A stretch of 64,000 nt of DNA from Phaeobacter italicus (GTDB lineage Bacteria > Pseudomonadota > Alphaproteobacteria > Rhodobacterales > Rhodobacteraceae). Location: contig NZ_CVRM01000011.1 of the NCBI RefSeq assembly GCF_001258055.1, positions 310,001 to 374,000 on the forward strand, in the 5' to 3' direction. Both the position numbers and the translations under genes were made by a program. Shown here piece by piece: positions 43,579 to 63,532 of the stretch (position 1 is its first letter; each line of letters begins with the position of its first letter). The notes under the pieces are model-generated. The model was given only the letters and a program-made list of their open reading frames with translations, was not told the origin of the DNA and ran no database searches.

Positions 43579-44175
43579 TCAAGGCCGAGTTGTTACAGAT
43601 TTTTGCGCAATTGCTGCAAGATAGCGGTCCAGTTCCGCTGCTATGTCAGCGAGCTCAGCGCCGCCGTCGTCGAAGTAGGGGGCAAAGACGTGGGTGGCGG
43701 TCTTGTAGGAAAGTGTTGCGCTTCCGTCGGTGTTTTCGGTGACATAGAGCCGGACAGGTGCTTCGATCATGGCTGGGGTCGAATGCGCCAAGATCCGCAC
43801 GGCAAAGTCATTGTTGAAAACGCCAATGACCCGATTTCCGGGGATGGTGATACCACGGGCCGCTGCTGCCTTGGTCGGGCCTGCCTGTGTTACAACAATC
43901 AGACCCTCTTCCTTGGTTGCCGCGATCACGTCCTGGACGAGGGTTGGGAAATCCTTGGCCGATGGATGCACCGCCCACCCCTGTCGCGCCGCCATGTCAC
44001 CACCATGGGCGAGACGGGGCAGGGCGACCAGCAGCAAAAGCGCGCAAACACCGCATAGCGCGGCCAGTGTCAGGTGAGACCCGTTGCCGCGATCTGCAGT
44101 GATGGCGCGCGCCTGATGACCCGAGCGCCCCATTGGGACAGGTCGTTCTGCATTGGGCCGAACATCATGGAACAT
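43579..44175 (-). CDS. DUF302-domain protein with N-terminal membrane anchor
   Basis: 198 residues (or 184 from ATG 44133). The hydrophobic segment LTLAALCGVCALLLLVALPRL (about 35-55) would anchor or secrete it, leaving the DUF302 domain outside: DFPTLVQDVIAATKEEGLIVV, VIGVFNNDFAVRIL, IEAPVRLYVTENTDG. DUF302 proteins often occur in gene neighbourhoods for sulfur oxidation; the function is unknown. Here it sits 103 bp beyond the soxT stop on the same strand and might be read through from soxT. Confidence 0.78.
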   Translation of the reverse strand: MFHDVRPNAERPVPMGRSGHQARAITADRGNGSHLTLAALCGVCALLLLVALPRLAHGGDMAARQGWAVHPSAKDFPTLVQDVIAATKEEGLIVVTQAGPTKAAAARGITIPGNRVIGVFNNDFAVRILAHSTPAMIEAPVRLYVTENTDGSATLSYKTATHVFAPYFDDGGAELADIAAELDRYLAAIAQKSVTTRP

Positions 44176-44278: not shown

Positions 44279-45352
44279 TCACGCGGCGCGGCGAAAGCCC
44301 TCGATCAGCTGTCGCAAGCCGATGGCCGCTCCGACCAGAATGGCCACAAATGTCACGGGGGCCGAGACAGCCAACAGTGAAAATGCGCTCAGGCCTTGCC
44401 CGACTGTGCAACCCATTGCAATGACGGCGCCCGCCCCCATGATCGCGGCCCCTATGATCTGGCGGCGCAGTTCGCGGGGGTCATCACAGGCTTCCCACCT
44501 GAAATGCCCCTTGAGGAGCGATCCGATAAAGGCGCCGAACCAGACACCAGCTACCGACCCCACGGCAAAGCTGAGTGGGCGCAGGCTCCCGGTCATTGTC
44601 CAAAGAATGGTTTCGCCAAGGGGGGCGGAAAAGGAGTGTGACACAACGGGGATCGCATCAAACCCGGTGCGGGCGATGTAGGAGGTGCCAGCCCAGCCAC
44701 TTATCACGGCAAGGGCAACCAGCGCGGCCCAGCCGATAGAGGATGGGGTTGCGATGACTTCACGGCTTTTGGCAGAGAAAGCCAGGATGAGCGCACCGAT
44801 TATCAGACCGACGGCGGGAACGGACAGGCCTGTGATTGCTGACAGCTGTTGCGCAATCCCCTGGGCGGTGTGGCTGGTGATTTCTTCCTGATGAAAGACC
44901 GCATCCCTTAGCGGCGCAAGCGGGCCCGTCAGAACCACATAGGTGGACACACCCATCACCAGTACGATCACAAAACTGCGCAGATCCCCCCCGCCCAGTC
45001 GGGCAATCGCGCCATAGCCGCACATGCCGGACAGCGCCATGCCATAGCCAAACATCAATCCGCCCAGAATGGACGCCATGGGCATCCAGCGGACCGCGAG
45101 ATATTGCGACTGCACGGGATCCAGCCAGCCAAATGCGATCAGGGAGAAACTGCCGAGAATGGACAGGCCGATGGCCATGCCCCAGGTGCGCATGCGCAGG
45201 CTGCTTCCGCCGTACAACAGGTCTTCGATCGCGCCTAAGGTGCAGAACCGGCCAAGCCGGGCAGCGAGCCCCAGCAGAATGCCTCCGAATAGACCGACAA
45301 GCGCCGTAAGATGCGCATCACTAAGGTGGTCTGTTGCAAAGGCAGGTATCAC
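44279..45352 (-). CDS. soxT: YeeE/YedE-family transporter, SoxT
   Basis: 357 residues with about nine to ten membrane segments. Conserved cysteine motifs ARLGRFCTLGAIEDLL, GYGMALSGMCGYGAI and GAVIAMGCTVGQGLSAF are those used by YeeE to pass thiosulfate through the membrane. SoxT-type proteins next to soxR supply sulfur signal or thiosulfate to the cytoplasm in Paracoccus and relatives (family knowledge). It follows soxR by five bases on the minus strand. Confidence 0.9.
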   Translation of the reverse strand: MIPAFATDHLSDAHLTALVGLFGGILLGLAARLGRFCTLGAIEDLLYGGSSLRMRTWGMAIGLSILGSFSLIAFGWLDPVQSQYLAVRWMPMASILGGLMFGYGMALSGMCGYGAIARLGGGDLRSFVIVLVMGVSTYVVLTGPLAPLRDAVFHQEEITSHTAQGIAQQLSAITGLSVPAVGLIIGALILAFSAKSREVIATPSSIGWAALVALAVISGWAGTSYIARTGFDAIPVVSHSFSAPLGETILWTMTGSLRPLSFAVGSVAGVWFGAFIGSLLKGHFRWEACDDPRELRRQIIGAAIMGAGAVIAMGCTVGQGLSAFSLLAVSAPVTFVAILVGAAIGLRQLIEGFRRAA

Positions 45353-45357
45353 GTTTC

Positions 45358-45693
45358 TCAGCTGTCTTTGCAGAACAATTCGTAGACAACTTCGAGAATG
45401 CGGCGTGGGCGGTCATCGGCAAGTCGGTAGTAAATTGCCTTGCCCTCGCGGCGGGGGATGACGAGCCCCTCCAGGCGCAAGCGCGACAATTGTTGCGACA
45501 CCGCAGCCTGACGCGCTGACAGCAGCTCTTCCAGCTCGGTCACCGATTTCTCGCCCGAGACCAAGTGGCACAAGATCATCAATCGTCCCTCATGGCTGAT
45601 GGCCTTGAGAAAGTTGGATGCGCGGGTGGCGTTGTCCACCATCGTGTCGAGATCTTCGGGTGCCATGTCGGCTGAGAACTGAGGCAGGGCCAT
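45358..45693 (-). CDS. soxR: SoxR, ArsR-family repressor of the SqrR/BigR type
   Basis: 111 residues from ATG 45693, which has AGGAAAG upstream; longer starts overlap soxS. The winged helix has SVTELEELLSARQAAVSQQL as recognition region and VIPRREGKAIYYRL as wing. Two cysteines, Cys42 (MILCHL) and Cys108 (ELFCKDS), lie at exactly the positions of the persulfide-sensing pair in BigR. This is not the MerR-type redox SoxR of enterobacteria. It should repress sox genes until sulfane sulfur modifies the Cys pair. Predicted operators are listed at 46318, 47886, 50292 and 52066. Confidence 0.92.
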   Translation of the reverse strand: MALPQFSADMAPEDLDTMVDNATRASNFLKAISHEGRLMILCHLVSGEKSVTELEELLSARQAAVSQQLSRLRLEGLVIPRREGKAIYYRLADDRPRRILEVVYELFCKDS

Positions 45694-45712: not shown

Positions 45713-46153
45713 TCAACCATTGTGGTCAGCGGCAGTATCGGGCGCAGGCGTCGGGCGCTGGGCCGTCTCCGGGTCAAAGCTGGTGTGCTGCTGTAGCAGC
45801 TGTGTCAGCAGGGGCCAAAAGAAATCTTCGCCCGGGTAGCCTTCCAGTCTGGCCATCTCACGTCCCTGATCCACGATCAAGAAGGTTGGCGTAAATGTGA
45901 CCCGCCGTGACAAGGCGACATCATCGGGCAGGGCCCGCAGATCCGCCCGGCGCAGTGGAGCAAAGGCGCCTTCGGCTGTCTTGGGGTAGATCGGGGCGAT
46001 TTCCTCGTTCCATCGGGCGCACCAGGAACAGCCGGGTTGCTCAACCATCAAAAGCTCTGCGGCCCACACCGGTGCCGTTCCCCCGATCGTTGCGCACAAG
46101 ACCGCAGCAGCAGTGGCCAGGCGGCGCGCGGTCTTGCGAAGCGGGTGAAACAT
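45713..46153 (-). CDS. soxS: SoxS, periplasmic thioredoxin
   Basis: 146 residues. A signal peptide (RRLATAAAVLCATIGGTAPVWA) leads to a thioredoxin fold with redox motif CSWC (42-45) in MVEQPGCSWCARWNEEI and the cis-Pro segment TFTPTFLIVD. In Paracoccus SoxS keeps SoxY reactivated by reducing it. First gene of the soxS-soxR-soxT transcript, divergent from soxV; its 3' end slightly overlaps possible longer soxR starts. Confidence 0.92.
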   Translation of the reverse strand: MFHPLRKTARRLATAAAVLCATIGGTAPVWAAELLMVEQPGCSWCARWNEEIAPIYPKTAEGAFAPLRRADLRALPDDVALSRRVTFTPTFLIVDQGREMARLEGYPGEDFFWPLLTQLLQQHTSFDPETAQRPTPAPDTAADHNG

Positions 46154-46317
46154 CTTGAGCTGACCTCTTGCAAGGTTACGGTTTTGGGCGGCTTGAATGG
46201 CCGCCGACTGCTAAAAGACATAGACCATTGCCGCCCAGAAGGTACGTTGATGACACAGCTACCAATCCAGATGGTCGTTGACGATGATCTTATCGCTGTG
46301 CCTATATGTACTACAAA

Positions 46318-46357
46318 ATTTGAATATGTGAATAGTGAAGCGTTTTTCACAGTGTGA
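46318..46357. promoter_or_regulatory. Candidate SoxR operator in the soxS-soxV gap plus TCACA-G-TGTGA dyad
   Basis: ATTTG-AATATG-TGAAT (46318-46333) matches ATTCA-N6-TGAAT at the right half and three of five bases on the left (ATTC-N8-GAAT with one mismatch). It lies midway between soxS (start 46153) and soxV (start 46418), where SoxR is known to bind in a related alphaproteobacterium. TCACAGTGTGA (46347-46357) is a separate perfect five-base dyad around one base. Confidence 0.55.
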
Positions 46358-46417
46358 GATCGCGGATTTGTTACAGTGGTGTCCGGGCAGCGGAAGGCGA
46401 GAGAGGGCAAGAGGGTC

Positions 46418-47155
46418 ATGCTGGAAATTTCCCTTGCGGGGGCGCTCTTTGCTGGGTTGCTGAGCTTTTTCACACCCTGCGTCCTGCCGATGGTGCCTTT
46501 CTATCTTTCCTACATGGGTGGCTTGTCGATGGCAGAGCTGCGCGGCAAGGCCGTGATAGCCCCCGGTGCCCAACGCAGGCTTGTGCTGGCGTCCCTTGTT
46601 TTTGCCGCCGGGGTGACGACGGTTTTCGTGCTGATGGGGATGGGTGCGACTGCGCTTGGTCAGCTTTTTGGTCAGTATATGGACGTGCTCTCCTATGTGG
46701 CGGCGGTCATCTTGCTGGCATTTGGGCTGCATTTTCTCGGCGTTGTCCGCATTCCCCTGCTGTACCGTGAGGCCCGGATCGACAGTACCGCAGAGCCGTC
46801 GACATTGGCGGGTGCCTATTTGATGGGGCTTGCATTTGGGTTTGGCTGGACCCCCTGTGTCGGGCCGGCGCTTGCGTCGATCCTGATGATTGCGTCGGGG
46901 ATGGGGGATGTTTGGCGCGGCGGGGTGTTGCTGTTTGTCTATGGTGCTGCGATGACGACGCCGTTTGTTGTGGCGGCTTTGTTTGCAGGGCCATTCTTAT
47001 CGTTCGTTTCGCGTCACCGGGCGGCCTTTGTGTGGGTGGAAAAGGGGATGGGCGTTATGCTGATCCTGTTTGCAGTGCTCATTGCCACAGGCGGCGTGCG
47101 TTACATTGCCGAGGCAATGATCCGCTGGTTTCCCGGATTTGCAGCCATCGGCTGA
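46418..47155 (+). CDS. soxV: SoxV, CcdA-family thiol-disulfide transporter
   Basis: 245 residues, six membrane segments. Conserved cysteines Cys21 (FFTPCVLPMVPFYLSYMGG) and Cys147 (FGWTPCVGPALASIL) pass electrons from cytoplasmic thioredoxin to the periplasm. In sox systems SoxV feeds SoxW and SoxS. ATG 46418 follows AGAGGG. The open frame extends 14 codons upstream without a better start. It is the first plus-strand gene of the sox operon. Confidence 0.94.
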   Translation: MLEISLAGALFAGLLSFFTPCVLPMVPFYLSYMGGLSMAELRGKAVIAPGAQRRLVLASLVFAAGVTTVFVLMGMGATALGQLFGQYMDVLSYVAAVILLAFGLHFLGVVRIPLLYREARIDSTAEPSTLAGAYLMGLAFGFGWTPCVGPALASILMIASGMGDVWRGGVLLFVYGAAMTTPFVVAALFAGPFLSFVSRHRAAFVWVEKGMGVMLILFAVLIATGGVRYIAEAMIRWFPGFAAIG

Positions 47156-47194
47156 GGTCTATTGATCCGCGAAAAGCTGAGAGGAGTTGATCAG

Positions 47195-47800
47195 ATGAAG
47201 CATATCTTTGCAGCAATTGTTGGCGCAGCCCTGGCTTTGCCCTTGCTTGGGCTGGTGGGCGACAGCGGGCGCGTTGTGGCGGCGGAACTGGGGGACGATG
47301 GCCTGCACAAGGCGCCTTGGATGCGCGAGACGTTCAAGGACCTGCGGGAAGACCTGGAAGAAGCCAATAGCGAGGGCAAGCGACTTGCCCTGTTCTTTGA
47401 ACAACGCGGCTGTGTCTACTGCACGAAGATGCACGAAACAGTGTTTCCGCATCCCGATGTTGCCAGCTACATCACCGAGAATTTCTTTGTCGTGCAGCTG
47501 AACCTTTATGGCGATGTCGAGGTCACGGATTTTGACGGAGAGACGCTCTCGGAAAAGGACATGGCGCGCAAGTGGGGCGTTCTGTTCACCCCGACGATCC
47601 TGTTTCTGCCACAGGAGGTAGGTGATGTTCCGGCCCCTCAGGCTGCGGTCGCTACAATGCCTGGGGCCTTTGGCGTGGGGACGACACTTGATATGTTCAC
47701 CTGGGTGAACGAAGAGCGGTATGCGATTGATAACGGTGAAGATTTCCAGCGTTATCATGCCCGCCGAATTCAAGAGCGGGACAACGGATCGACGGATTGA
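47195..47800 (+). CDS. soxW: SoxW, periplasmic thioredoxin
   Basis: 201 residues. A signal peptide (FAAIVGAALALPLLGLVG) precedes a thioredoxin-like domain with RGCVYCTKMHETVF (Cys73, Cys76) and the cis-Pro segment LFTPTILFLPQ. SoxW is reduced by SoxV in Paracoccus. ATG 47195 is preceded by GAGGAG. It lies 39 bp after soxV and 188 bp before soxX, a gap that contains the best-formed short SoxR site. Confidence 0.93.
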   Translation: MKHIFAAIVGAALALPLLGLVGDSGRVVAAELGDDGLHKAPWMRETFKDLREDLEEANSEGKRLALFFEQRGCVYCTKMHETVFPHPDVASYITENFFVVQLNLYGDVEVTDFDGETLSEKDMARKWGVLFTPTILFLPQEVGDVPAPQAAVATMPGAFGVGTTLDMFTWVNEERYAIDNGEDFQRYHARRIQERDNGSTD

Positions 47801-47885
47801 CGTAGACCCAAAGTGGTGATCGTTGCCCCGGTTGATGGCGGGGTGGGACGCGCGCGTCAGGGGATTGTCGTGGGGAGAAATAAAA

Positions 47886-47901
47886 ATTCAAATTAATGAA
47901 T
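47886..47901. promoter_or_regulatory. SoxR operator before soxX (ATTCA-N6-TGAAT)
   Basis: ATTCA-AATTAA-TGAAT is a perfect palindrome of the ATTC-N8-GAAT type, with further A/T symmetry outside. It lies 87 bp before the soxX ATG. The soxW-soxX gap is the second place where SoxR is known to bind in Pseudaminobacter (recalled literature). The motif is read directly; binding is inference. Confidence 0.7.
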
Positions 47902-47988
47902 TTGATGTTGCGTTGCGCAGCGTGCCTCGCCTAGGGTAAGGGGCAGCGAAGCACGCCGACAGCGCGTGAAAAGCCAATGGGAGGAAAC

Positions 47989-48465
47989 ATGAAGCATATA
48001 TCTCTGACACTGGCGGCGTGCCTTGTCGGCACGGTTGCGCTGGCGGGCGAGACCGCGCCCAAAGAGGTTGTCTACGATGAGTATGGCGCCGTTGAGACCT
48101 CGCTCAGCGGGGTGGCAGGTGATGCCGCAAGTGGTGCGCTGCTGGTTGGCGACAAGTCCAAAGGAAACTGTGTGGCCTGCCATCAGGTGAGCGCGCTGGC
48201 CGATGTGCCGTTCCACGGCGAGATCGGCCCGTCGCTTGACGGGGCTGCCGATCGCTGGAACGAAGCAGAGCTGCGCGGACTGGTTGCCAACGCAAAGAAG
48301 ACCTTTGAGGGCACCATGATGCCCGCATTCTACAAGGTCGATGGCTATATCCGCCCGGGCGATGCCTATACCGGCAAAGCAGGTGCGGAACCGCTGCCGC
48401 CCATTTTGACGGCGCAGGAAATCGAAGATGTGGTCGCGTTTCTGGCGACCCTCAAGGAAGACTGA
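47989..48465 (+). CDS. soxX: SoxX, c-type cytochrome subunit of SoxXA
   Basis: 158 residues. A signal peptide (LTLAACLVGTVALAG) precedes one heme site, GNCVACHQV (Cys61-His65), with a Met-rich distal segment GTMMPAFYK. With SoxA it forms the periplasmic enzyme that couples thiosulfate to the SoxY cysteine. ATG 47989 has GGGAGGAAAC upstream. Start of the soxXYZABCD catalytic block. Confidence 0.96.
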   Translation: MKHISLTLAACLVGTVALAGETAPKEVVYDEYGAVETSLSGVAGDAASGALLVGDKSKGNCVACHQVSALADVPFHGEIGPSLDGAADRWNEAELRGLVANAKKTFEGTMMPAFYKVDGYIRPGDAYTGKAGAEPLPPILTAQEIEDVVAFLATLKED

Positions 48466-48517
48466 CGCTTAGGGTCATTGCATCCCCAAGCGCCATCAAC
48501 GTCAAAGGAGACATAAG

Positions 48518-48934
48518 ATGGAGTTCTCTCGTCGCGACACGCTTGGCCTGGGCCTGGGCGCCGTTGCCCTGACCATGCTGCCGATGCCGGTGGTCGCTGC
48601 TGCGGACGACCGCATTGCCGAGTTTACCGGTGGTGCGGATATGGCTGACAGCGGTCTGACCCTGACAGCGCCGGAAATCGCCGAAAACGGCAATACCGTT
48701 CCGATCGAGGTGAGCGCACCGGGCGCAACTGCGATCCTCGTGCTGGCAACCGGCAACCCGGAGCCGGGCGTGGCGACCTTCAACTTTGGTCCGCTCGCAG
48801 CGGTTCAGGCGGCTTCGACCCGTATCCGTCTGGCAGGCACGCAGGACGTTGTTGCTGTGGCAAAGATGGCGGACGGCAGCTTTGCCAAGGCCAGCGCAAC
48901 GGTAAAAGTGACCATCGGCGGCTGCGGCGGCTAA
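48518..48934 (+). CDS. soxY: SoxY, sulfur-carrier subunit
   Basis: 138 residues. A Tat signal (FSRRDTLGLGLGAVALTML) exports it, folded with SoxZ, to the periplasm. The C-terminal swinging arm TIGGCGG ends the protein and its Cys136 carries all intermediates of thiosulfate oxidation as S-sulfonate, persulfide or sulfane chains. AAAGGAGAC precedes the ATG. SoxZ follows 48 bp later. Confidence 0.97.
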   Translation: MEFSRRDTLGLGLGAVALTMLPMPVVAAADDRIAEFTGGADMADSGLTLTAPEIAENGNTVPIEVSAPGATAILVLATGNPEPGVATFNFGPLAAVQAASTRIRLAGTQDVVAVAKMADGSFAKASATVKVTIGGCGG

Positions 48935-48982
48935 GCGCGAGCCGGTTTCAGGTTCGCCCCAATCAATTCAGGAGTTCACGAC

Positions 48983-49312
48983 ATGGCATCCGGTGTAAAA
49001 CCCCGCGTCAAAGTCCCCAAGAAAGCCGCAGCCGGTGAGGCGGTCACTATCAAGACCCTCATCAGCCACAAGATGGAAAGCGGTCAGCGTAAGGACAAGG
49101 AAGGCAACGTCATTCCGCGTTCGATCATCAACCGCTTCACCTGCGAGTTCAACGGCGAGAGCGTGGTCGATGTGACCATGGAGCCCGCGATTTCGACCAA
49201 CCCGTATTTCCAGTTCGAAGCCACAGTCCCCGAAGCAGGTGACTTTGTCTTTACCTGGTACGACGATGACGGGTCCGTCTACACAGAGCAAAAGTCGATC
49301 GCGATCGGCTGA
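48983..49312 (+). CDS. soxZ: SoxZ, partner of SoxY
   Basis: 109 residues, no signal peptide of its own, so it probably travels with SoxY through Tat. PRSIINRFTCEFNGESVVD, ISTNPYFQFEATVPEAGDFV and FTWYDDDGS match the SoxZ immunoglobulin-like fold. It forms the SoxYZ heterodimer. It is the usual length for the family, with no anomalies. Confidence 0.97.
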   Translation: MASGVKPRVKVPKKAAAGEAVTIKTLISHKMESGQRKDKEGNVIPRSIINRFTCEFNGESVVDVTMEPAISTNPYFQFEATVPEAGDFVFTWYDDDGSVYTEQKSIAIG

Positions 49313-49388
49313 TCCCTTCCGGATCCATAGGCAAGCGCCCGGTCCGGCCATTGGTCGGGTAGGGCGACCACCCAAGGGAGGAAACATC

Positions 49389-50240
49389 ATGAACAATAAG
49401 GCAATCACAGCAATTGCCATGGCGCTGGCCTTGCCCGTCGCCGCCTACGCAGAGGCGGATGACGACACGCTGGTCGTCAATGAAGAGATCGAAATGGTCA
49501 CCAAGGCGGCGGCGCCAGCCCATCTTGCGGACACTCTGGATGAGGTGATGTCTGGTTGGCATTTCCGCTCTGATGAGACCCAGGCGTTGCAGATGGATGA
49601 CTTTGACAATCCGGCGATGGTCTTTGTTGATCAGGCAATGGACACCTGGACCACGGTAGAGGGCAGCGCAGAAAAATCCTGTGCCTCTTGCCATGACGAT
49701 GTCGAAGACAGCATGGCCGGTGTGCGCGCGGTCTATCCCAAGTGGAACGAAGCCGCAGGTGAGGTGCGGACCCTCGCCATGCAGATCAATGACTGCCGTG
49801 AAAACCAGATGGGCGCGGAAAAGTGGAAATACACCGGCGGCAAGATGTCTGCGATGGAGGCGCTGATTTCGGTGCAGTCGCGCGGGATGCCCGTCAACGT
49901 GGCTATTGACGGGCCGGTCCAATCCACCTGGGAGCAGGGCAAGGAGCTCTACTATACCCGGACCGGTCAGCTGGAGCTTTCCTGTGCCAATTGCCACGAA
50001 GACAACTATGGCAACATGATCCGTGCGGACCATCTCAGTCAGGGTCAGATCAATGGCTTTCCGGTGTACCGTCTGAAAAACACCAAGCTGAACACCGCGC
50101 ATGCCCGCTTCAAGGGCTGCGTGCGCGACACTCGGGCCGAAACCTACAGCCCGGGTTCGGCAGAATTCGTTGCGCTGGAGCTTTACGTTGCGTCCCGCGG
50201 GAACGGTCTGTCGGTCGAGGCACCGTCTGTTCGCAACTGA
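49389..50240 (+). CDS. soxA: SoxA, diheme c-type cytochrome subunit of SoxXA
   Basis: 283 residues. A signal peptide (AITAIAMALALPVAAYAE) is followed by two heme sites: SCASCHDD (Cys98-His102) and SCANCHED (Cys199-His203). FKGCVRDTRAE supplies Cys244, the persulfide-type ligand and active-site residue of the second heme in SoxA. Two hemes put it with the Paracoccus/Rhodovulum type. ATG 49389 has GGGAGGAAAC upstream; an open frame running back into soxZ is ignored. Confidence 0.97.
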   Translation: MNNKAITAIAMALALPVAAYAEADDDTLVVNEEIEMVTKAAAPAHLADTLDEVMSGWHFRSDETQALQMDDFDNPAMVFVDQAMDTWTTVEGSAEKSCASCHDDVEDSMAGVRAVYPKWNEAAGEVRTLAMQINDCRENQMGAEKWKYTGGKMSAMEALISVQSRGMPVNVAIDGPVQSTWEQGKELYYTRTGQLELSCANCHEDNYGNMIRADHLSQGQINGFPVYRLKNTKLNTAHARFKGCVRDTRAETYSPGSAEFVALELYVASRGNGLSVEAPSVRN

Positions 50241-50291
50241 TTTTCGTGGCCCCGCGTCAGGCATGATGCGGGGCGCGCTTCCCTCTATTTC

Positions 50292-50307
50292 ATTCAAACA
50301 TGCGAAT
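50292..50307. promoter_or_regulatory. SoxR-like site before soxB (ATTCA-N6-CGAAT)
   Basis: ATTCA-AACATG-CGAAT keeps ATTC-N8-GAAT exactly, with one mismatch in the inner pair compared with the soxX and soxC sites. It lies 31 bp before the soxB ATG at 50339, in the 98-bp soxA-soxB gap. Confidence 0.55.
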
Positions 50308-50338
50308 ATATCGCGTGAAGCAGCAGAAAGAACAACCC

Positions 50339-52036
50339 ATGATTTCGCGGCGTGATTTCTTGCAGGTCTCAATGGCGGCCTCCGCTCTTGTTGGGGCCTC
50401 TGGTTTTGGCAACTGGGCGCGGCTGGCAGCGCAGCAAAAACTGACACAGGATCAGCTCTTGCAGTTTGACACCTATGGCAACATCAGCCTGATCCATGTG
50501 ACCGACATTCATGCGCAGCTGAAACCGATCTATTTCCGCGAACCATCCATCAATCTGGGGGTCGGTGCGAACAAAGGTCATGTGCCGCACATCACCGGCG
50601 CAGACTTTCGCAAGGCCTATGGCATCGCTGATGGCAGCCCGTCCGCCTATGCGCTGACCTATAACGATTTTGCGTCCCTTGCCGAAGGCTATGGCCGGGT
50701 GGGTGGGCTTGACCGGGTCTCCACCATAATCAACGCGATCCGCGCCGATCGGCCTGATGCGCTTTTGCTGGATGGCGGTGACACCTGGCATGGGTCCTAC
50801 ACCTGCCATCACACCGAAGGCCAGGACATGGTCAATGTGATGAACGCGCTAAAACCGGATGCGATGACCTTTCACTGGGAATTCACGCTGGGGTCGGACC
50901 GGGTGAACGAGATCGTCGAAGGGCTGCCTTTTGCGGCTCTTGGCCAGAATATTTTCGATGCGGAATGGGATGAACCGGCCGAGCTGTTCAAACCTTACAA
51001 GTTCTTCGACCGTGGCGGCGCAAAGGTTGCGGTGATCGGCCAGGCGTTCCCGTACATGCCGATTGCAAACCCCGGCTGGATGTTCCCGGAATACTCCTTC
51101 GGGATCCGTGATGAGCATATGCAGGACATGGTTGACGAAGTGCGCGCCGCTGGCGCGGATGTTGTCGTGGTTCTGTCTCACAACGGGTTTGACGTCGACA
51201 AGAAGATGGCCGGTGTGGTCAGCGGTATCGACGTGATCCTGTCCGGTCATACCCATGATGCGTTGCCCGAACCGGTTCTGGTGGGAAAGACGCATATCAT
51301 CGCATCCGGCTCCAACGGCAAATTCGTCTCTCGGGTGGATCTGGACGTGCGCGACAGCCAGCTGAGGGGGCTGCGGCACAAGCTGATCCCGGTGTTTGCG
51401 GACGTAATCGCGCCCGACCCGGTGATTTCCAAACTGATAGATGAACAGCGCGCGCCGTATGAGGCAGAGCTGGCAGAGGTGATTGGCCAGACGGATGAGC
51501 TGCTTTATCGGCGTGGCAATTTCAACGGCACCTGGGATGATCTCATCTGCGACGCGCTGCTGAGCGAGCGAGAGGCTGATATTGCCCTGTCGCCCGGTGT
51601 ACGCTGGGGGCCATCCTTGCTGCCGGGCGATGACATCACCCGCGAAGATATCTGGAACGTCACCTCCATGAGCTACGGTGCGGCCTATCGCAATGAAATG
51701 ACAGGCGAGTTCCTGAAGGTCGTGATGGAAGACGTGGCCGACAACATCTTTAACCCCGACCCCTATTACCAGCAGGGCGGTGACATGGTGCGGGTCGGTG
51801 GCATGGGCTACCATATCGACATCACCAAGCCGCAGGGCGAACGGATCAGCAATATGACATTGCTGAAGACCGGAGAGGCGATTGATCCGGCCAAGACCTA
51901 TACCGTGGCTGGCTGGGCCAGTGTGAATGAAGGGACCGAAGGTCCGCAGATCTGGGATGTGGTCGAAAGCCACATTCGCAAGATGGGCACTGTCACTCTT
52001 TCCCCGAACAATTCCGTGCAGGTGTCGGGCGCATAA
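50339..52036 (+). CDS. soxB: SoxB, dimanganese thiosulfohydrolase
   Basis: 565 residues. A Tat signal (SRRDFLQVSMAASALVGA) exports it. It hydrolyses the sulfonate from SoxY-bound S-thiosulfonate. Metallophosphatase-type ligands are seen in HVTDIHAQLKP, LLDGGDTWHGS, FHWEFTLGSDRV, VLSHNGFDVDKK and SGHTHDALP, followed by the 5'-nucleotidase C-terminal domain. The ATG at 50339 is chosen because the Tat motif starts there; its ribosome-binding site is weak. Standard marker gene for thiosulfate oxidation. Confidence 0.97.
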   Translation: MISRRDFLQVSMAASALVGASGFGNWARLAAQQKLTQDQLLQFDTYGNISLIHVTDIHAQLKPIYFREPSINLGVGANKGHVPHITGADFRKAYGIADGSPSAYALTYNDFASLAEGYGRVGGLDRVSTIINAIRADRPDALLLDGGDTWHGSYTCHHTEGQDMVNVMNALKPDAMTFHWEFTLGSDRVNEIVEGLPFAALGQNIFDAEWDEPAELFKPYKFFDRGGAKVAVIGQAFPYMPIANPGWMFPEYSFGIRDEHMQDMVDEVRAAGADVVVVLSHNGFDVDKKMAGVVSGIDVILSGHTHDALPEPVLVGKTHIIASGSNGKFVSRVDLDVRDSQLRGLRHKLIPVFADVIAPDPVISKLIDEQRAPYEAELAEVIGQTDELLYRRGNFNGTWDDLICDALLSEREADIALSPGVRWGPSLLPGDDITREDIWNVTSMSYGAAYRNEMTGEFLKVVMEDVADNIFNPDPYYQQGGDMVRVGGMGYHIDITKPQGERISNMTLLKTGEAIDPAKTYTVAGWASVNEGTEGPQIWDVVESHIRKMGTVTLSPNNSVQVSGA

Positions 52037-52065
52037 GCCCGGCACTCGCCAAAAATTTTTGCGCT

Positions 52066-52091
52066 GAAAAATTCATGAAAGTGAATTTTTC
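52066..52091. promoter_or_regulatory. SoxR operator before soxC, perfect 10-bp arms
   Basis: GAAAAATTCA and TGAATTTTTC are perfect reverse complements around TGAAAG, containing ATTCA-N6-TGAAT (52071-52086), the same core and spacing as before soxX. It lies 21 bp before the soxC ATG, just upstream of the ribosome-binding site. It is the longest symmetric copy in the window. Confidence 0.7.
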
Positions 52092-52112: not shown

Positions 52113-53384
52113 ATGACTGATAAGACACATGACGCCAAACCGTCGCGCCGCCAGTTTCTGGCCGGTGCTGCTGCGGTTGGGGCAGGGGCGGTGGCGGGCG
52201 GCTCTGCTTCGGCTGCCACGCCCGACCCGCTGATTACGCAGGTGCAGGACTGGGCCTCTGGTCTGGGGGACGGGGTAGATGCGACCCCCTATGGCCTGCC
52301 GATCCAATACGAAAGCGATGTGGTGCGTCGCAATGTGGAATGGCTGACGGCGGACACGATCAGTTCGATCAATTTCACGCCGATCCATGCGCTGGATGGC
52401 ACCATCACACCGCAGGGCTGTGCGTTCGAACGCCACCATTCTGGCGCGATTGAACTGCGCAAGGAAGACTATAGGCTGATGATCAACGGCCTGGTCGACA
52501 CCCCATTGGTGTTCACCTATGCGGATCTGGAACGCTTCCCGCGCGAAAACCGCGTCTATTTCTGCGAATGCGCGGCGAATTCCGGCATGGAATGGGCTGG
52601 TGCGCAGCTGAATGGCGCGCAGTTCACCCACGGCATGATCCACAACATGGAATATTCCGGTGTGTCCCTTCGGACCCTGCTGGAGGAGGCAGGCGTCAAA
52701 CCTGAGGGCAAATGGGTCTACGTGGAAGGCGCGGATGCGTCCTCTAACGGGCGGTCGATCCCGCTGGAAAAAGCGATGGATGACGTGCTGGTCGCCTTCA
52801 AGGCCAATGGCGAGGCGCTGCGCAAGGAACACGGCTATCCCGTTCGTCTGGTGGTGCCCGGTTGGGAGGGCAACATGTGGGTCAAATGGCTGCGCCGGGT
52901 TGAGGTCATGGACCAGCCGGTCGAAAGCCGCGAGGAGACATCGAAATACACCGACACACTCGCCAATGGGGTCAGCCGCAAATGGACCTGGGAGATGGAT
53001 GCAAAATCCGTCGTCACCAGCCCCAGCCCACAGGCGCCGATCACTCATGGCCCAGGGCCCTTGGTCATCACTGGGCTGGCATGGTCCGGTCGCGGCGCGA
53101 TCGCTGGCGTTGATGTTTCGCTGGACGGTGGCAAGAACTGGCAGGAGGCGCGGCTGGCGGCGCCCGGTACTGACAAGGCGCTGACCCGGTTTTACCTCGA
53201 CATCAATTGGGATGGCTCCGAGATGCTGCTGCAAAGCCGCGCGCGCGACACGTCGGGCTATGTGCAGCCCACCAAGGCACAGTTGCGCGAGGTGCGTGGG
53301 TTGAATTCCATCTATCACAACAACGCCATCCAGACCTGGTGGGTCAAGGCAAACGGGGAGGCGGAAAATGTCGAGGTTTCTTGA
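52113..53384 (+). CDS. soxC: SoxC, molybdenum subunit of sulfane dehydrogenase
   Basis: 423 residues. A Tat signal (SRRQFLAGAAAVGAGAVAGG) exports the cofactor-loaded protein. The sulfite-oxidase-type domain has VYFCECAANSGMEW with the molybdenum-ligating cysteine, then a C-terminal dimerisation domain (ALTRFYLDINWDGSEMLLQS). With SoxD it oxidises the sulfane sulfur on SoxY, giving eight electrons per thiosulfate. Presence of soxCD implies full oxidation to sulfate without sulfur globules. AAGGAG precedes the ATG. Confidence 0.97.
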   Translation: MTDKTHDAKPSRRQFLAGAAAVGAGAVAGGSASAATPDPLITQVQDWASGLGDGVDATPYGLPIQYESDVVRRNVEWLTADTISSINFTPIHALDGTITPQGCAFERHHSGAIELRKEDYRLMINGLVDTPLVFTYADLERFPRENRVYFCECAANSGMEWAGAQLNGAQFTHGMIHNMEYSGVSLRTLLEEAGVKPEGKWVYVEGADASSNGRSIPLEKAMDDVLVAFKANGEALRKEHGYPVRLVVPGWEGNMWVKWLRRVEVMDQPVESREETSKYTDTLANGVSRKWTWEMDAKSVVTSPSPQAPITHGPGPLVITGLAWSGRGAIAGVDVSLDGGKNWQEARLAAPGTDKALTRFYLDINWDGSEMLLQSRARDTSGYVQPTKAQLREVRGLNSIYHNNAIQTWWVKANGEAENVEVS

Positions 53385-54465
53385 AGTGTTGACGATACCC
53401 ACTGAGAGCAGGCGGAACGTTGTTGCAGCGGCTGTTTTATCTATGGCGGTTGCCTCGCCCGTTGCCGCAGAGAAATTCGGCCTCGGCCGTCCCGCCTTGC
53501 CGGAGGAAATCGCGGCTTGGGATCTGGACGTGGCGCCGGATGGCACCGGCTTGCCTGCGGGCTCGGGTGATGTGTTCACCGGCGAAGAGGTCTTTGCCGA
53601 GAAATGCGCGGTCTGCCATGGCGATTTTGCCGAGGGCGTGGGCAATTGGCCCAAACTCGCGGGCGGGCAGGGCACGTTGGACCACGAGGACCCGCTGAAG
53701 ACAGTGGGCAGCTACTGGCCTTATCTGTCGACCACCTGGGACTATGTGAACCGCTCCATGCCGTTTGGCGATGCGCAGTCGCTGACGCCGGATGAGGTTT
53801 ATGCCATCGTGGCCTACATCCTTTATTCCAACGATCTGGTGGATGACGACTTCGTGCTGTCGGATGCGACGTTTGCCGAAATTCAGCTGCCCAATGCAGA
53901 TGGGTTCATTCTGGACGACCGTCTGCAAGCCGAGAAGCATTTCTGGACAGACAGCCCCTGCATGGAAAACTGCAAAGACAACGTTGAGATCACGATGCGC
54001 GCACGTGTTCTGGACGTCACGCCGCAGGAGGCCACAGCCGACGAACCGCCAGCCGAGACCGGTGACGACGTTTTACTCGCCAGTGCAGAGACAGAGGCAG
54101 AACCCGAGGCCACGCCGGAGCAACCCGAGGTCGTTGCGCTGGATCCGGAGCTGGTTGCGAAGGGGGAAAAAACCTTCAAGAAATGCAAGGCCTGCCATCA
54201 GGTGGGTGAGGGGGCAAAGTCCAAAACAGGTCCGGTTCTGAATGGCATTATCGGGGCCCAGGCCGGGGCGGCAGAGGGCTTTCGCTATTCCAAGGCGATG
54301 GTGACCGCAGGTGATGCCGGTCTGGTCTGGAACGAAGAAGAACTGGCAGCGTTCCTTGCCAAACCCAAAGCCTACATGAAGGGCACCAAGATGGCCTTTG
54401 CCGGGCTGAAGAAGGACGCGGATATCGAGGCAATCATCGCCTATCTGCAGTCTCACTCGCAGTAG
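53368..54465 (+). CDS. soxD: SoxD, diheme c-type cytochrome subunit
   Basis: 365 residues. A signal segment (VVAAAVLSMAVASPVAA) is followed by heme 1, KCAVCHGDF (Cys80-His84), an acidic Pro/Glu-rich linker (about 215-255) and heme 2, KCKACHQVGEG, with YMKGTKMAF as distal Met region. It accepts electrons from SoxC. Its start overlaps the soxC end by 17 bp, so the pair is coupled. Last sox gene here; no soxEFGH follows. Confidence 0.96.
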   Translation: MSRFLEVLTIPTESRRNVVAAAVLSMAVASPVAAEKFGLGRPALPEEIAAWDLDVAPDGTGLPAGSGDVFTGEEVFAEKCAVCHGDFAEGVGNWPKLAGGQGTLDHEDPLKTVGSYWPYLSTTWDYVNRSMPFGDAQSLTPDEVYAIVAYILYSNDLVDDDFVLSDATFAEIQLPNADGFILDDRLQAEKHFWTDSPCMENCKDNVEITMRARVLDVTPQEATADEPPAETGDDVLLASAETEAEPEATPEQPEVVALDPELVAKGEKTFKKCKACHQVGEGAKSKTGPVLNGIIGAQAGAAEGFRYSKAMVTAGDAGLVWNEEELAAFLAKPKAYMKGTKMAFAGLKKDADIEAIIAYLQSHSQ

Positions 54466-62179: not shown

Positions 62180-63532
62180 TCAGCTATTGCCGAGGTTGCT
62201 TTCCAGCCATTTCTCAAGCCAGTGAATGTTGTATTCACCGGTATGGATGTCTTTCTCTTCCAGCAGCGCGTGAAACAGCGGCACAGTGGTGTCGATACCA
62301 TCCACGATCAGCTCACCCAATGCGCGGCTCAGACGGGCCAGCGCCTCGGGGCGGTCGCGCCCGTGCACGATCAGCTTGCCGATCAGGCTGTCGTAGTAGG
62401 GCGGGATCGAATAGCCATCATACAGCGCGGAATCCATCCGAACACCCAGGCCGCCGGGGGCGTGATACTGGGTAATCTTGCCGGGGCAGGGCGCAAAGTT
62501 CGGCAGCTTTTCCGCGTTGATCCGGACCTCGATGGAGTGGCCGTTGATGACCAGATCATCCTGGCCAAAAGACATCGGCAGACCGGCGGCAACACGGATC
62601 TGTTCGCGCACGAGATCGACACCAAAGATGCCTTCGGTCACAGGGTGTTCCACCTGCAGACGTGTGTTCATCTCGATGAAATAGAACTCGCCGTTTTCAT
62701 AGAGGAACTCGATGGTGCCTGCGCCGATGTAGTTGATCTTGGCAACCGCATCCGCACAGATCTTGCCGATACGGGCGCGCTCTTCCTCGGTGATGCAGGG
62801 GCCCGGTGCCTCTTCGAACACCTTCTGGTGACGGCGCTGCAGAGAACAGTCGCGCTCACCCAGATGAACCGCCTTGCCCTTACCGTCACCAAAGACCTGA
62901 ATCTCGATGTGGCGGGGGGTGGTCAGGTATTTTTCGATATAGACTTCGTCGTTGCCAAAGGCGGCCTTGCCCTCGGCCCGGGCGGTCATGAAGGCCTGTT
63001 CCATGTCGGCAGCGGTCTTCGCCACCTTCATGCCGCGGCCACCACCACCGGCTGTTGCCTTGATGATGACCGGATAGCCGATCTCTTCGCCGATCTTCTT
63101 GGCAGCAGCCAGATCAGGAACGCCGCCATCAGAGCCGGGAACGCAGGGCACGCCCAGTTCCTTCATGGTGTCTTTCGCGGTGATCTTGTCGCCCATGATG
63201 CGGATATGTTCCGCGGTCGGGCCGATGAAGGTCAGGCCGTGATCTTCGACGATCTGCACAAAGTTCGCGTTCTCGGACAGGAAGCCATAGCCGGGGTGGA
63301 TCGCCTGCGCGCCAGTGATTTCACAAGCCGAGATGATCGCCGGAATCGACAGGTAGCTTTGCGTCCCGGAAGGCGGGCCGATGCAGACGGATTCATCGGC
63401 CATGCGCACGTGCATCGCGTCTGCATCCGCAGTGGAGTGGACCGCAACCGACTGGATGCCCATCTCGCGACAGGCGCGGATCACGCGCAGCGCGATCTCA
63501 CCACGGTTGGCAATCAGGATCTTGTCAAACAT
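62180..63532 (-). CDS. accC: Acetyl-CoA carboxylase, biotin carboxylase subunit
   Basis: 450 residues. N-terminal [23 protein letters not shown]-grasp glycine-rich loop [36 protein letters not shown], and [17 protein letters not shown] with metal-binding Glu residues. It carboxylates biotin on AccB using ATP and bicarbonate, the first step of fatty-acid synthesis. It begins nine bases after the accB stop. Confidence 0.97.

Follow-up and report, generated by a model that had tools for sequence, protein, structure and literature searches.

Predicted SoxR operators before soxX, soxB, soxC and hemA point to a probable modular organisation of the sox operon and a probable coupling of heme supply in Phaeobacter italicus and its relatives

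Descriptions of the sox operon commonly treat it as a single unit controlled by SoxR. The sox locus considered here lies in a stretch of 64,000 nucleotides from Phaeobacter italicus (contig NZ_CVRM01000011.1, positions 310,001–374,000; assembly GCF_001258055.1), referred to below as the window, and carries candidate SoxR operators both before soxX and within the operon. The SoxR protein of Hyphomicrobium denitrificans bound four of five probes, and polysulfide, with sulfur bridging, abolished binding (PMC10451225). In Bradyrhizobium, soxY1 was induced about 4500-fold and soxV about 50-fold, and both were near 1 in a soxR mutant (PMC5748708); this unequal induction suggests that SoxR targets differ in strength. 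All the sox genes of a Roseobacter-group strain are induced by thiosulfate (PMC10090131), and ATTC-N8-GAAT has been deduced as the site of SqrR (PMC9774250). DUF302 genes are found inside Sulfitobacter sox clusters, and some type strains have a 5-aminolevulinate (ALA) synthase gene between soxF and soxH (PMC11034169).

Three palindromes of the window, before soxX, soxB and soxC (Table 1), are, judging from their sequences, very likely to be operators. It appears fairly probable that they are operators of SoxR, that the soxXYZA, soxB and soxCD modules have SoxR-controlled starts of their own, and that hemA is co-regulated with them. The palindromes before soxX (ATTCAAATTAATGAAT) and soxC (ATTCATGAAAGTGAAT) are exact copies of ATTCA-N6-TGAAT, and the one before soxB (ATTCAAACATGCGAAT) has the form ATTCA-N6-CGAAT; a fourth stretch, ATTTGAATATGTGAAT, lies in the soxS–soxV gap (46318–46333). 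An earlier note on this DNA had assigned the four to one regulon with a common core and spacing. All four were located where it had placed them, and the core letters and spacing of ATTC-N8-GAAT are exact at soxX, soxB and soxC, which form three dyads of the same class; the left half of the fourth is not ATTC, and this site belongs to another motif class. Exact ATTCA-N6-TGAAT occurs twice in the window (0.05 expected) and ATTC-N8-GAAT three times (0.84 expected), each count being reached in one of 100 shuffles. The whole genome has 30 copies of ATTC-N8-GAAT in 4.05 Mb, 27 of them outside the window, and at the density of these 27 the Poisson probability of three within 4.2 kb is about 4e-6. When up to two mismatches are allowed, the window shows no excess (18 found, 21.7 expected), and loose matches alone therefore carry no meaning. 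A 9/10 match at 62233 falls within an open reading frame (ORF) of 450 codons. Context was inspected for 12 of the 27 outside sites, seven of which sit within a likely gene (L100–L105, L107); a copy before an Lrp-type gene (L097) was rejected as chance, as it is not conserved in five alignable genomes of the genus.

Motif positions, rarity, conservation and co-occurrence with hairpins and with the presence of soxB were computed. The motif was scored as the number of matched letters out of ten in ATTCA-N6-TGAAT, with cut-offs of 9 or more (9+) and 8 or more (8+), in 201 loci including the window. The first set comprised the best 80 of 584 confirmed SoxB loci, from named-species genomes, and the second set 120 further SoxB loci, five from genus members and 115 from family matches taken top-down, with some contig-end loci and many of the most distant ones omitted. 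Thirteen loci with soxB DNA at least 99% identical to another were dropped, leaving 188 distinct loci. Among the gaps that could be delimited, 9+ was reached in 142 of 171 soxW–soxX, 61 of 186 soxA–soxB, 34 of 174 soxB–soxC and 15 of 176 soxS–soxV gaps, and in none of the control gaps (0/115 soxV–soxW, 0/180 soxX–soxY, 0/182 soxY–soxZ, 0/183 soxZ–soxA and 0/79 soxC–soxD); at 8+, the soxA–soxB count rises to 143. In the soxW–soxX, soxA–soxB or soxB–soxC gaps, a score of 9 is attained in no more than four loci with spacings of 4, 5, 7 or 8 or with the motif reversed, and in 7, 3 and 3 loci, respectively, with swapped arms. In the first set, the three gaps gave 58, 24 and 8 sites at 9+, against dinucleotide-shuffle expectations of 0.76, 0.76 and 0.14. 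At soxB, ATTCA-N6-CGCAT is the most frequent form and may be a weaker site. The median distance from the operator end to the start codon is 29 bp for soxB (10–90%, 18–40) and 26 bp for soxC (21–30); the soxB start of the window was taken as 50339 (MISRRDF...), and an ORF caller instead places the start of the frame at 50300, within the operator. The soxB operator is overlapped by another dyad, of the type ACATGCGCATGTGT (50297–50311 in the window, and also in the soxA–soxB gap of relatives). This second dyad is alternating purine–pyrimidine in several loci; by column analysis, covariation supporting its symmetry is weak at best.

The genus comparison covered seven genomes, six with soxB and one (G006) without. 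Exact ATTCA-N6-TGAAT occurs only two to five times per genome in these seven; the equal density in unrelated DNA that the earlier note had named as a refutation is not seen. The soxX and soxC copies are exact in all six soxB-positive genomes, being the only two in G005, and the cores at soxX, soxB and soxC are invariant across the six. The perfect 10-bp arms that the earlier note described at soxC (52066–52091) are present in the window genome only; in each of the five others two of the five outer positions are mismatched as DNA, one of which could still form a G-U pair as RNA, and ATTCA and TGAAT themselves are invariant in the genus. In the locus set, soxC operators occur more often at loci that lack a soxB operator (19 loci with both, 118 with soxB only, 15 with soxC only and 21 with neither; p = 6e-4). 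On a locus tree of SoxB plus SoxC (173 loci, built by a quick method), on which independent pairs were counted, the two operators change in the same direction in 0.6 pairs and in opposite directions in 6.7 (median p 0.04).

An exact copy of the operator-like motif lies 51 bp before hemA in the window's genome (C33:184156–184171; L096:4157–4172). The gene encodes ALA synthase (TIGR01821, above cut-off), and the five other soxB-positive genomes of the genus have ATTCGGTAACGTGAAT 50–51 bp before it; in the soxB-negative G006, the hemA upstream region lacks the site (best score 6/10). The hemA survey covered 103 genomes taken in the order of the HemA match list, and hence not at random: 64 soxB-positive and 39 soxB-negative (no match to SoxB at E 1e-100), the negative status being mostly read from absence in the SoxB match list. 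A site of 9+ within 200 bp upstream of hemA was found in 31/64 soxB-positive against 3/39 soxB-negative genomes (p = 1.1e-5 when genomes are treated as independent), and one of 8+ in 36/64 against 5/39; control patterns reach 9 in no genome or one. On the tree, pairs for the hemA site and soxB stand at about 1.4:0.1, too few supported pairs to decide. The three soxB-negative exceptions (G262, G097 and G093) have SoxR/SqrR-like proteins (53, 83 and 61% identical), which explain little because 25 of the 36 other soxB-negative genomes also have them at E 1e-15.

A second ALA synthase may stand in for the hemA site in some relatives. Among the 80 loci of the first set, at least 21 have an ALA synthase gene 3' of soxB, some loci ending at contig ends (L020, L033, L039, L041, L050, L052, L055, L059, L060, L063, L065, L066, L068, L069, L071, L074, L075, L076, L080 and L094, plus L048). 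Twenty of these enzymes are 56–61% identical to HemA (that of L066 in two pieces), and that of L048 is 85% identical; 19 of the 20, compared mutually, are at least 68% identical. In L094, the second ALA synthase gene lies directly 3' of soxB. A further paralogue type, about 66–74% identical to the sox-side one, occurs elsewhere in many genomes. With the sox type defined as at least 76% identity to the L076 synthase, a cut chosen after the list had been viewed, such an enzyme is present in 17 of the 64 soxB-positive genomes and in 2 of the 39 soxB-negative ones (G124, and in part G269). The ten genomes in which its gene lies no more than about 8 kb from soxB all lack a 9+ hemA site (0/10, against 31/53 of the others; p = 9e-4; G271, with soxB at a contig end and a hemA score of 7, was excluded), and the six with it elsewhere all have one. 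The tree pairs for hemA site and sox-linked synthase (0:3) run in the expected direction and are not significant. On balance, and with some reserve, we favour the view that SoxR couples heme supply to thiosulfate oxidation in one of two alternative ways, with an operator before the housekeeping hemA, which is distant from sox, or with a second ALA synthase gene beside sox, and that the second SoxR-controlled start within the operon has shifted between soxB and soxC in evolution. As the motif also stands before hemA in many relatives, a common switch may control the sulfur enzymes and the supply of their heme.

A related site of the ATTCC-N6-TGAAT form, ATTCC(A/C/T)ATGTGTGAAT, precedes a metallohydrolase gene on the same contig as sox, far from it (C11:101253–101268; L099:3754–3769). 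The best NCBIfam models for the product are SoxH-related (1.2e-37, below their cut-offs). All five other soxB-positive members of the genus keep this site, whereas nothing in G006 matches this DNA. Both hemA and the SoxH-like gene are likely members of the SoxR regulon, which looks wider than in the earlier note.

Hairpins stand just before both internal operators. All 186 soxA–soxB gaps have one of −12 kcal/mol or lower within 75 nt of the soxA stop codon, and by a second measure the median for this gap is −19.6, the other gaps having medians of −6 to −9. A strong hairpin with a run of three or more T is found in 80/186 soxA–soxB, 26/174 soxB–soxC, 12/171 soxW–soxX, 11/182 soxY–soxZ, 8/183 soxZ–soxA, 4/180 soxX–soxY and 3/115 soxV–soxW gaps. 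In the soxB–soxC gap, this combination accompanies 19 of the 34 soxC operators, against 7 of the 140 loci without one (p = 6e-11), and the link keeps its direction on the tree (pairs 6.5:0.3, median p 0.03); a graded T score also differs with the soxB operator (p = 3e-5). The two gaps can be read as a hairpin, then an operator, then a presumed restart. Partial termination and internal restart appear likely, and B and CD expression would be lowered by the hairpins unless restarted. The soxX site is followed by conserved columns, TTGTTGTTGCGT and CTACGGTA, that look like a promoter.

Several results weigh against separate starts and a shared regulon. The earlier note had named a lack of conservation of the internal sites in related sox operons as a refutation. 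They are conserved, soxB in 143/186 loci at 8+, soxC in 34/174 at 9+ and both throughout the soxB-positive members of the genus, but at soxC a score of 9+ is not reached in 140 of 174 loci, among them L016 (score 7), the named relative closest to the window, and 19 of the 34 loci that reach it also have a soxB site at 8+. The hairpin comparison for soxC is confounded, as loci without the soxC operator are mostly short-gapped. For the soxB operator, a link with the T tract lacks significance both in tree pairs (6.0:2.0, median p 0.29) and by T-run count (64/143 with the operator and 16/43 without, p 0.48). A sigma-70 consensus scan of the window found no promoter at either internal site (one match elsewhere, 2.2 expected; the block after the soxX site is also absent from its matches), a terminator scan with 12 matches in the window includes neither the soxA nor the soxB hairpin, and the column consensus shows no conserved −35/−10 pair around the soxB or soxC sites. 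For hemA, perfect 10/10 sites do not differ significantly (14/64 against 3/39, p 0.10). The same absence of promoter consensus and of listed terminators, together with the short distances from operator end to start codon, would suit a single long transcript from soxX on which SoxR bound at the soxB and soxC sites acts as a roadblock or booster, without internal promoters. We regard this as rather unlikely, since in relatives hairpins, many of them with T runs, lie just 5' of the operators and co-occur with that of soxC. The levels of XYZA, B and CD may be set independently, as the earlier note proposed, the hairpin and T-tract evidence being mixed.

The protein expected to bind these sites belongs to the SqrR/BigR/SoxR clade, with an ArsR-type winged helix (PF01022) and a soxSRT neighbourhood. 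Its best PDB matches are an ArsR regulator (13ct/6o8l, 1.4e-36), which we take to be the Rhodobacter capsulatus SqrR, and BigR (3pqj). A stretch of the recognition helix, RQAAVSQQL, is identical to that of 13ct/6o8l, and thus presumably common to SoxR and SqrR, and both cysteines align. The two cysteines are kept in 170 and 169 of the 171 SoxR sequences of the locus set. The score against the NCBIfam BigR equivalog model (94.7, cut-off 155) indicates a relative within the clade and not a BigR equivalog. The first helix residue is S or T in 4 of 137 loci with good soxX sites and in 11 of 26 with poor ones; these variants were not used as proof because loci with poor sites also have the more divergent SoxR proteins (median identity 0.64 vs 0.78). 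It is distinctly unlikely that another ArsR/SqrR-type regulator acts on some of the sites, SoxR being confined to soxX and the soxS–soxV gap. Such regulators do occur apart from sox, as 28 of the 39 soxB-negative genomes carry a SoxR-like protein (E 1e-15 or better), and the soxB site is overlapped by the second dyad, but the window genome has a single close SoxR, the only other match being 25% identical (E 6e-4). The soxB-negative G006 retains a SoxR-like protein (80%), encoded beside a DUF302 gene (L365; the latter identified by eye from ORFs), and its locus gives the impression that a neighbouring sox operon has been lost.

A role of the palindromes as RNA hairpins in mRNA processing or stability, rather than as DNA operators, is very improbable. 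It would account for the covariation of the outer soxC pairs (columns −1/16, A-T in 21 and C-G in 7 of 33), for the perfect arms in the window genome and for the pairing of the other genus arms as RNA save for one mismatch and one G-U. However, the core letters are fixed, not merely paired, the commonest soxB right half, CGCAT, breaks pairing with its letters constant, and identical letters stand before hemA and the SoxH-like gene. Chance or base composition, to which the lack of excess at two mismatches might point, is a practically negligible explanation given the positional conservation in 188 loci, the empty control gaps and the near-empty control spacings.

The soxS–soxV gap follows other rules. 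A conserved island stands out in this otherwise poorly conserved gap in six genus genomes, and across the locus set the gap favours TGAAT repeats three or one apart and TGAAT-N1-ATTCA (127, 111 and 99 of 173 at 8+, against 7.5–12 in mononucleotide shuffles). The control patterns equal or beat the 15 sites of the motif (15 for spacing 8, 30 for swapped arms). The recurring direct repeats and TGAAT-N1-ATTCA in relatives rule out this site as an ordinary ATTCA-N6-TGAAT operator. The sox genes of the window form a minus-strand soxT-R-S group and a plus-strand soxV-W-X-Y-Z-A-B-C-D group, and the full order T R S V W X Y Z A B C D is found here and in 150 of the 188 loci.

Table 1. Genes and predicted regulatory features of the sox locus, in window coordinates
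Feature	Position	Strand	Basis
DUF302 protein gene	43579–44175	-	Adjoins soxT
soxT, YeeE/YedE-type sulfur transporter	44279–45352	-	Pfam PF04143 Sulf_transp, 4e-59; TsuA-like NCBIfam models below cut-off
soxR, ArsR-family repressor, SqrR/BigR/SoxR clade	45358–45693	-	PF01022 HTH_5; PDB matches; cysteines
soxS, thioredoxin-like	45713–46153	-	PF13098 slightly under gathering score; gene order
soxS–soxV regulatory block, TGAAT direct repeat type	46303–46335	.	Conserved island in six genus genomes; arrangement scan
soxV, CcdA/DsbD-type membrane protein	46418–47155	+	PF02683
soxW, thioredoxin-like	47195–47800	+	PF13098
Predicted SoxR operator before soxX	47886–47901	.	142/171 loci at 9+/10; genus conservation
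Promoter-like block, TTGATGTTGCGT ... CTAGGGT, abutting the soxX operator 3'	47902–47939	+	Column conservation in 142 loci and genus
soxX, c-type cytochrome	47989–48465	+	TIGR04485 above cut-off
soxY	48518–48934	+	TIGR04488 above cut-off
soxZ	48983–49312	+	TIGR04490 above cut-off
soxA, c-type cytochrome	49389–50240	+	TIGR04484 above cut-off
GC-rich terminator-like hairpin 3' of soxA, weak T tract in window	50249–50274	+	Stem mostly kept in genus
Predicted SoxR operator before soxB (ATTCA-N6-CGAAT); a weak second dyad overlaps it	50292–50307	.	143/186 at 8+, 61 at 9+
soxB	50339–52036	+	Metallophos and 5_nucleotid_C domains; query for fetching loci
Terminator-like hairpin across the soxB stop codon, then AAAAATTTTT tract	52018–52060	+	−21.8 kcal/mol; genus-conserved
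Predicted SoxR operator before soxC	52071–52086	.	34/174 loci at 9+/10; genus conservation
soxC, molybdenum subunit	52113–53384	+	TIGR04555 above cut-off
soxD, cytochrome subunit	53368–54465	+	Cytochrome c family matches all below cut-off; overlap with soxC; order in relatives

From these patterns, we infer SoxR binding, internal promoters, termination and the direction of the effect. When oxidisable sulfur is lacking, reduced SoxR dimers would sit on ATTCA-N6-TGAAT before soxX, soxB and soxC, and the hairpins 3' of soxA and soxB, with T tracts varying in strength, would reduce read-through. The operon would in this way be divided into the modules XYZA, B and CD, each started near its operator under SoxR control. 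Sulfane sulfur would bridge the two cysteines of SoxR, as is known for the Hyphomicrobium protein, releasing it everywhere and allowing all modules to start, and the same operator at hemA would simultaneously raise 5-aminolevulinate, and hence heme, for the Sox cytochromes. If this is true, the internal operators and hairpins would explain how the SoxYZ carrier, the cytochromes, SoxB and SoxCD could differ in level, and also the lineage differences in the module boundary. The hemA link would be a concrete way for cells to supply the heme that a cytochrome pathway requires once induced, and hemA should be thiosulfate-responsive in genomes with the site and not where a second synthase adjoins sox.

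New here are the hairpins before both internal operators (with variable T tracts, weak in the window), the soxC operator being commoner without the soxB one, and the motif upstream of hemA. Among the open-access literature matches listed, none deals with SoxR sites upstream of soxB, soxC or hemA in organisms that oxidise thiosulfate; the only listed title to name promoters of soxB and soxC (PMC4941409) is about sarcosine oxidase. Like the SoxR of H. denitrificans, the window protein is predicted to be a two-cysteine ArsR-type sulfane-sulfur repressor of sox for which several intergenic regions are bound or predicted; the probes in that species were soxA–soxY, soxT1A–shdrR and two more, whereas the predicted sites here lie before soxB and soxC, within a co-directional operon, and before hemA (PMC10451225). 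Pseudaminobacter salicylatoxidans and Paracoccus pantotrophus share with the window the soxSRT arrangement and a soxS–soxV region that SoxR regulates there and presumably here, and differ in that the excerpts of the papers describing them mention no soxB or soxC operator (PMC10451225, PMC11582611, PMC5748708). SqrR of R. capsulatus and YgaV of Escherichia coli recognise the same ATTC-N8-GAAT site, but at different target genes and without the sox operon architecture (PMC9774250). In the sox clusters of Sulfitobacter, ALA synthase is likewise tied to sox; the link is made there by gene position, whereas in the window genome it is made by a predicted operator at a distant hemA (PMC11034169).

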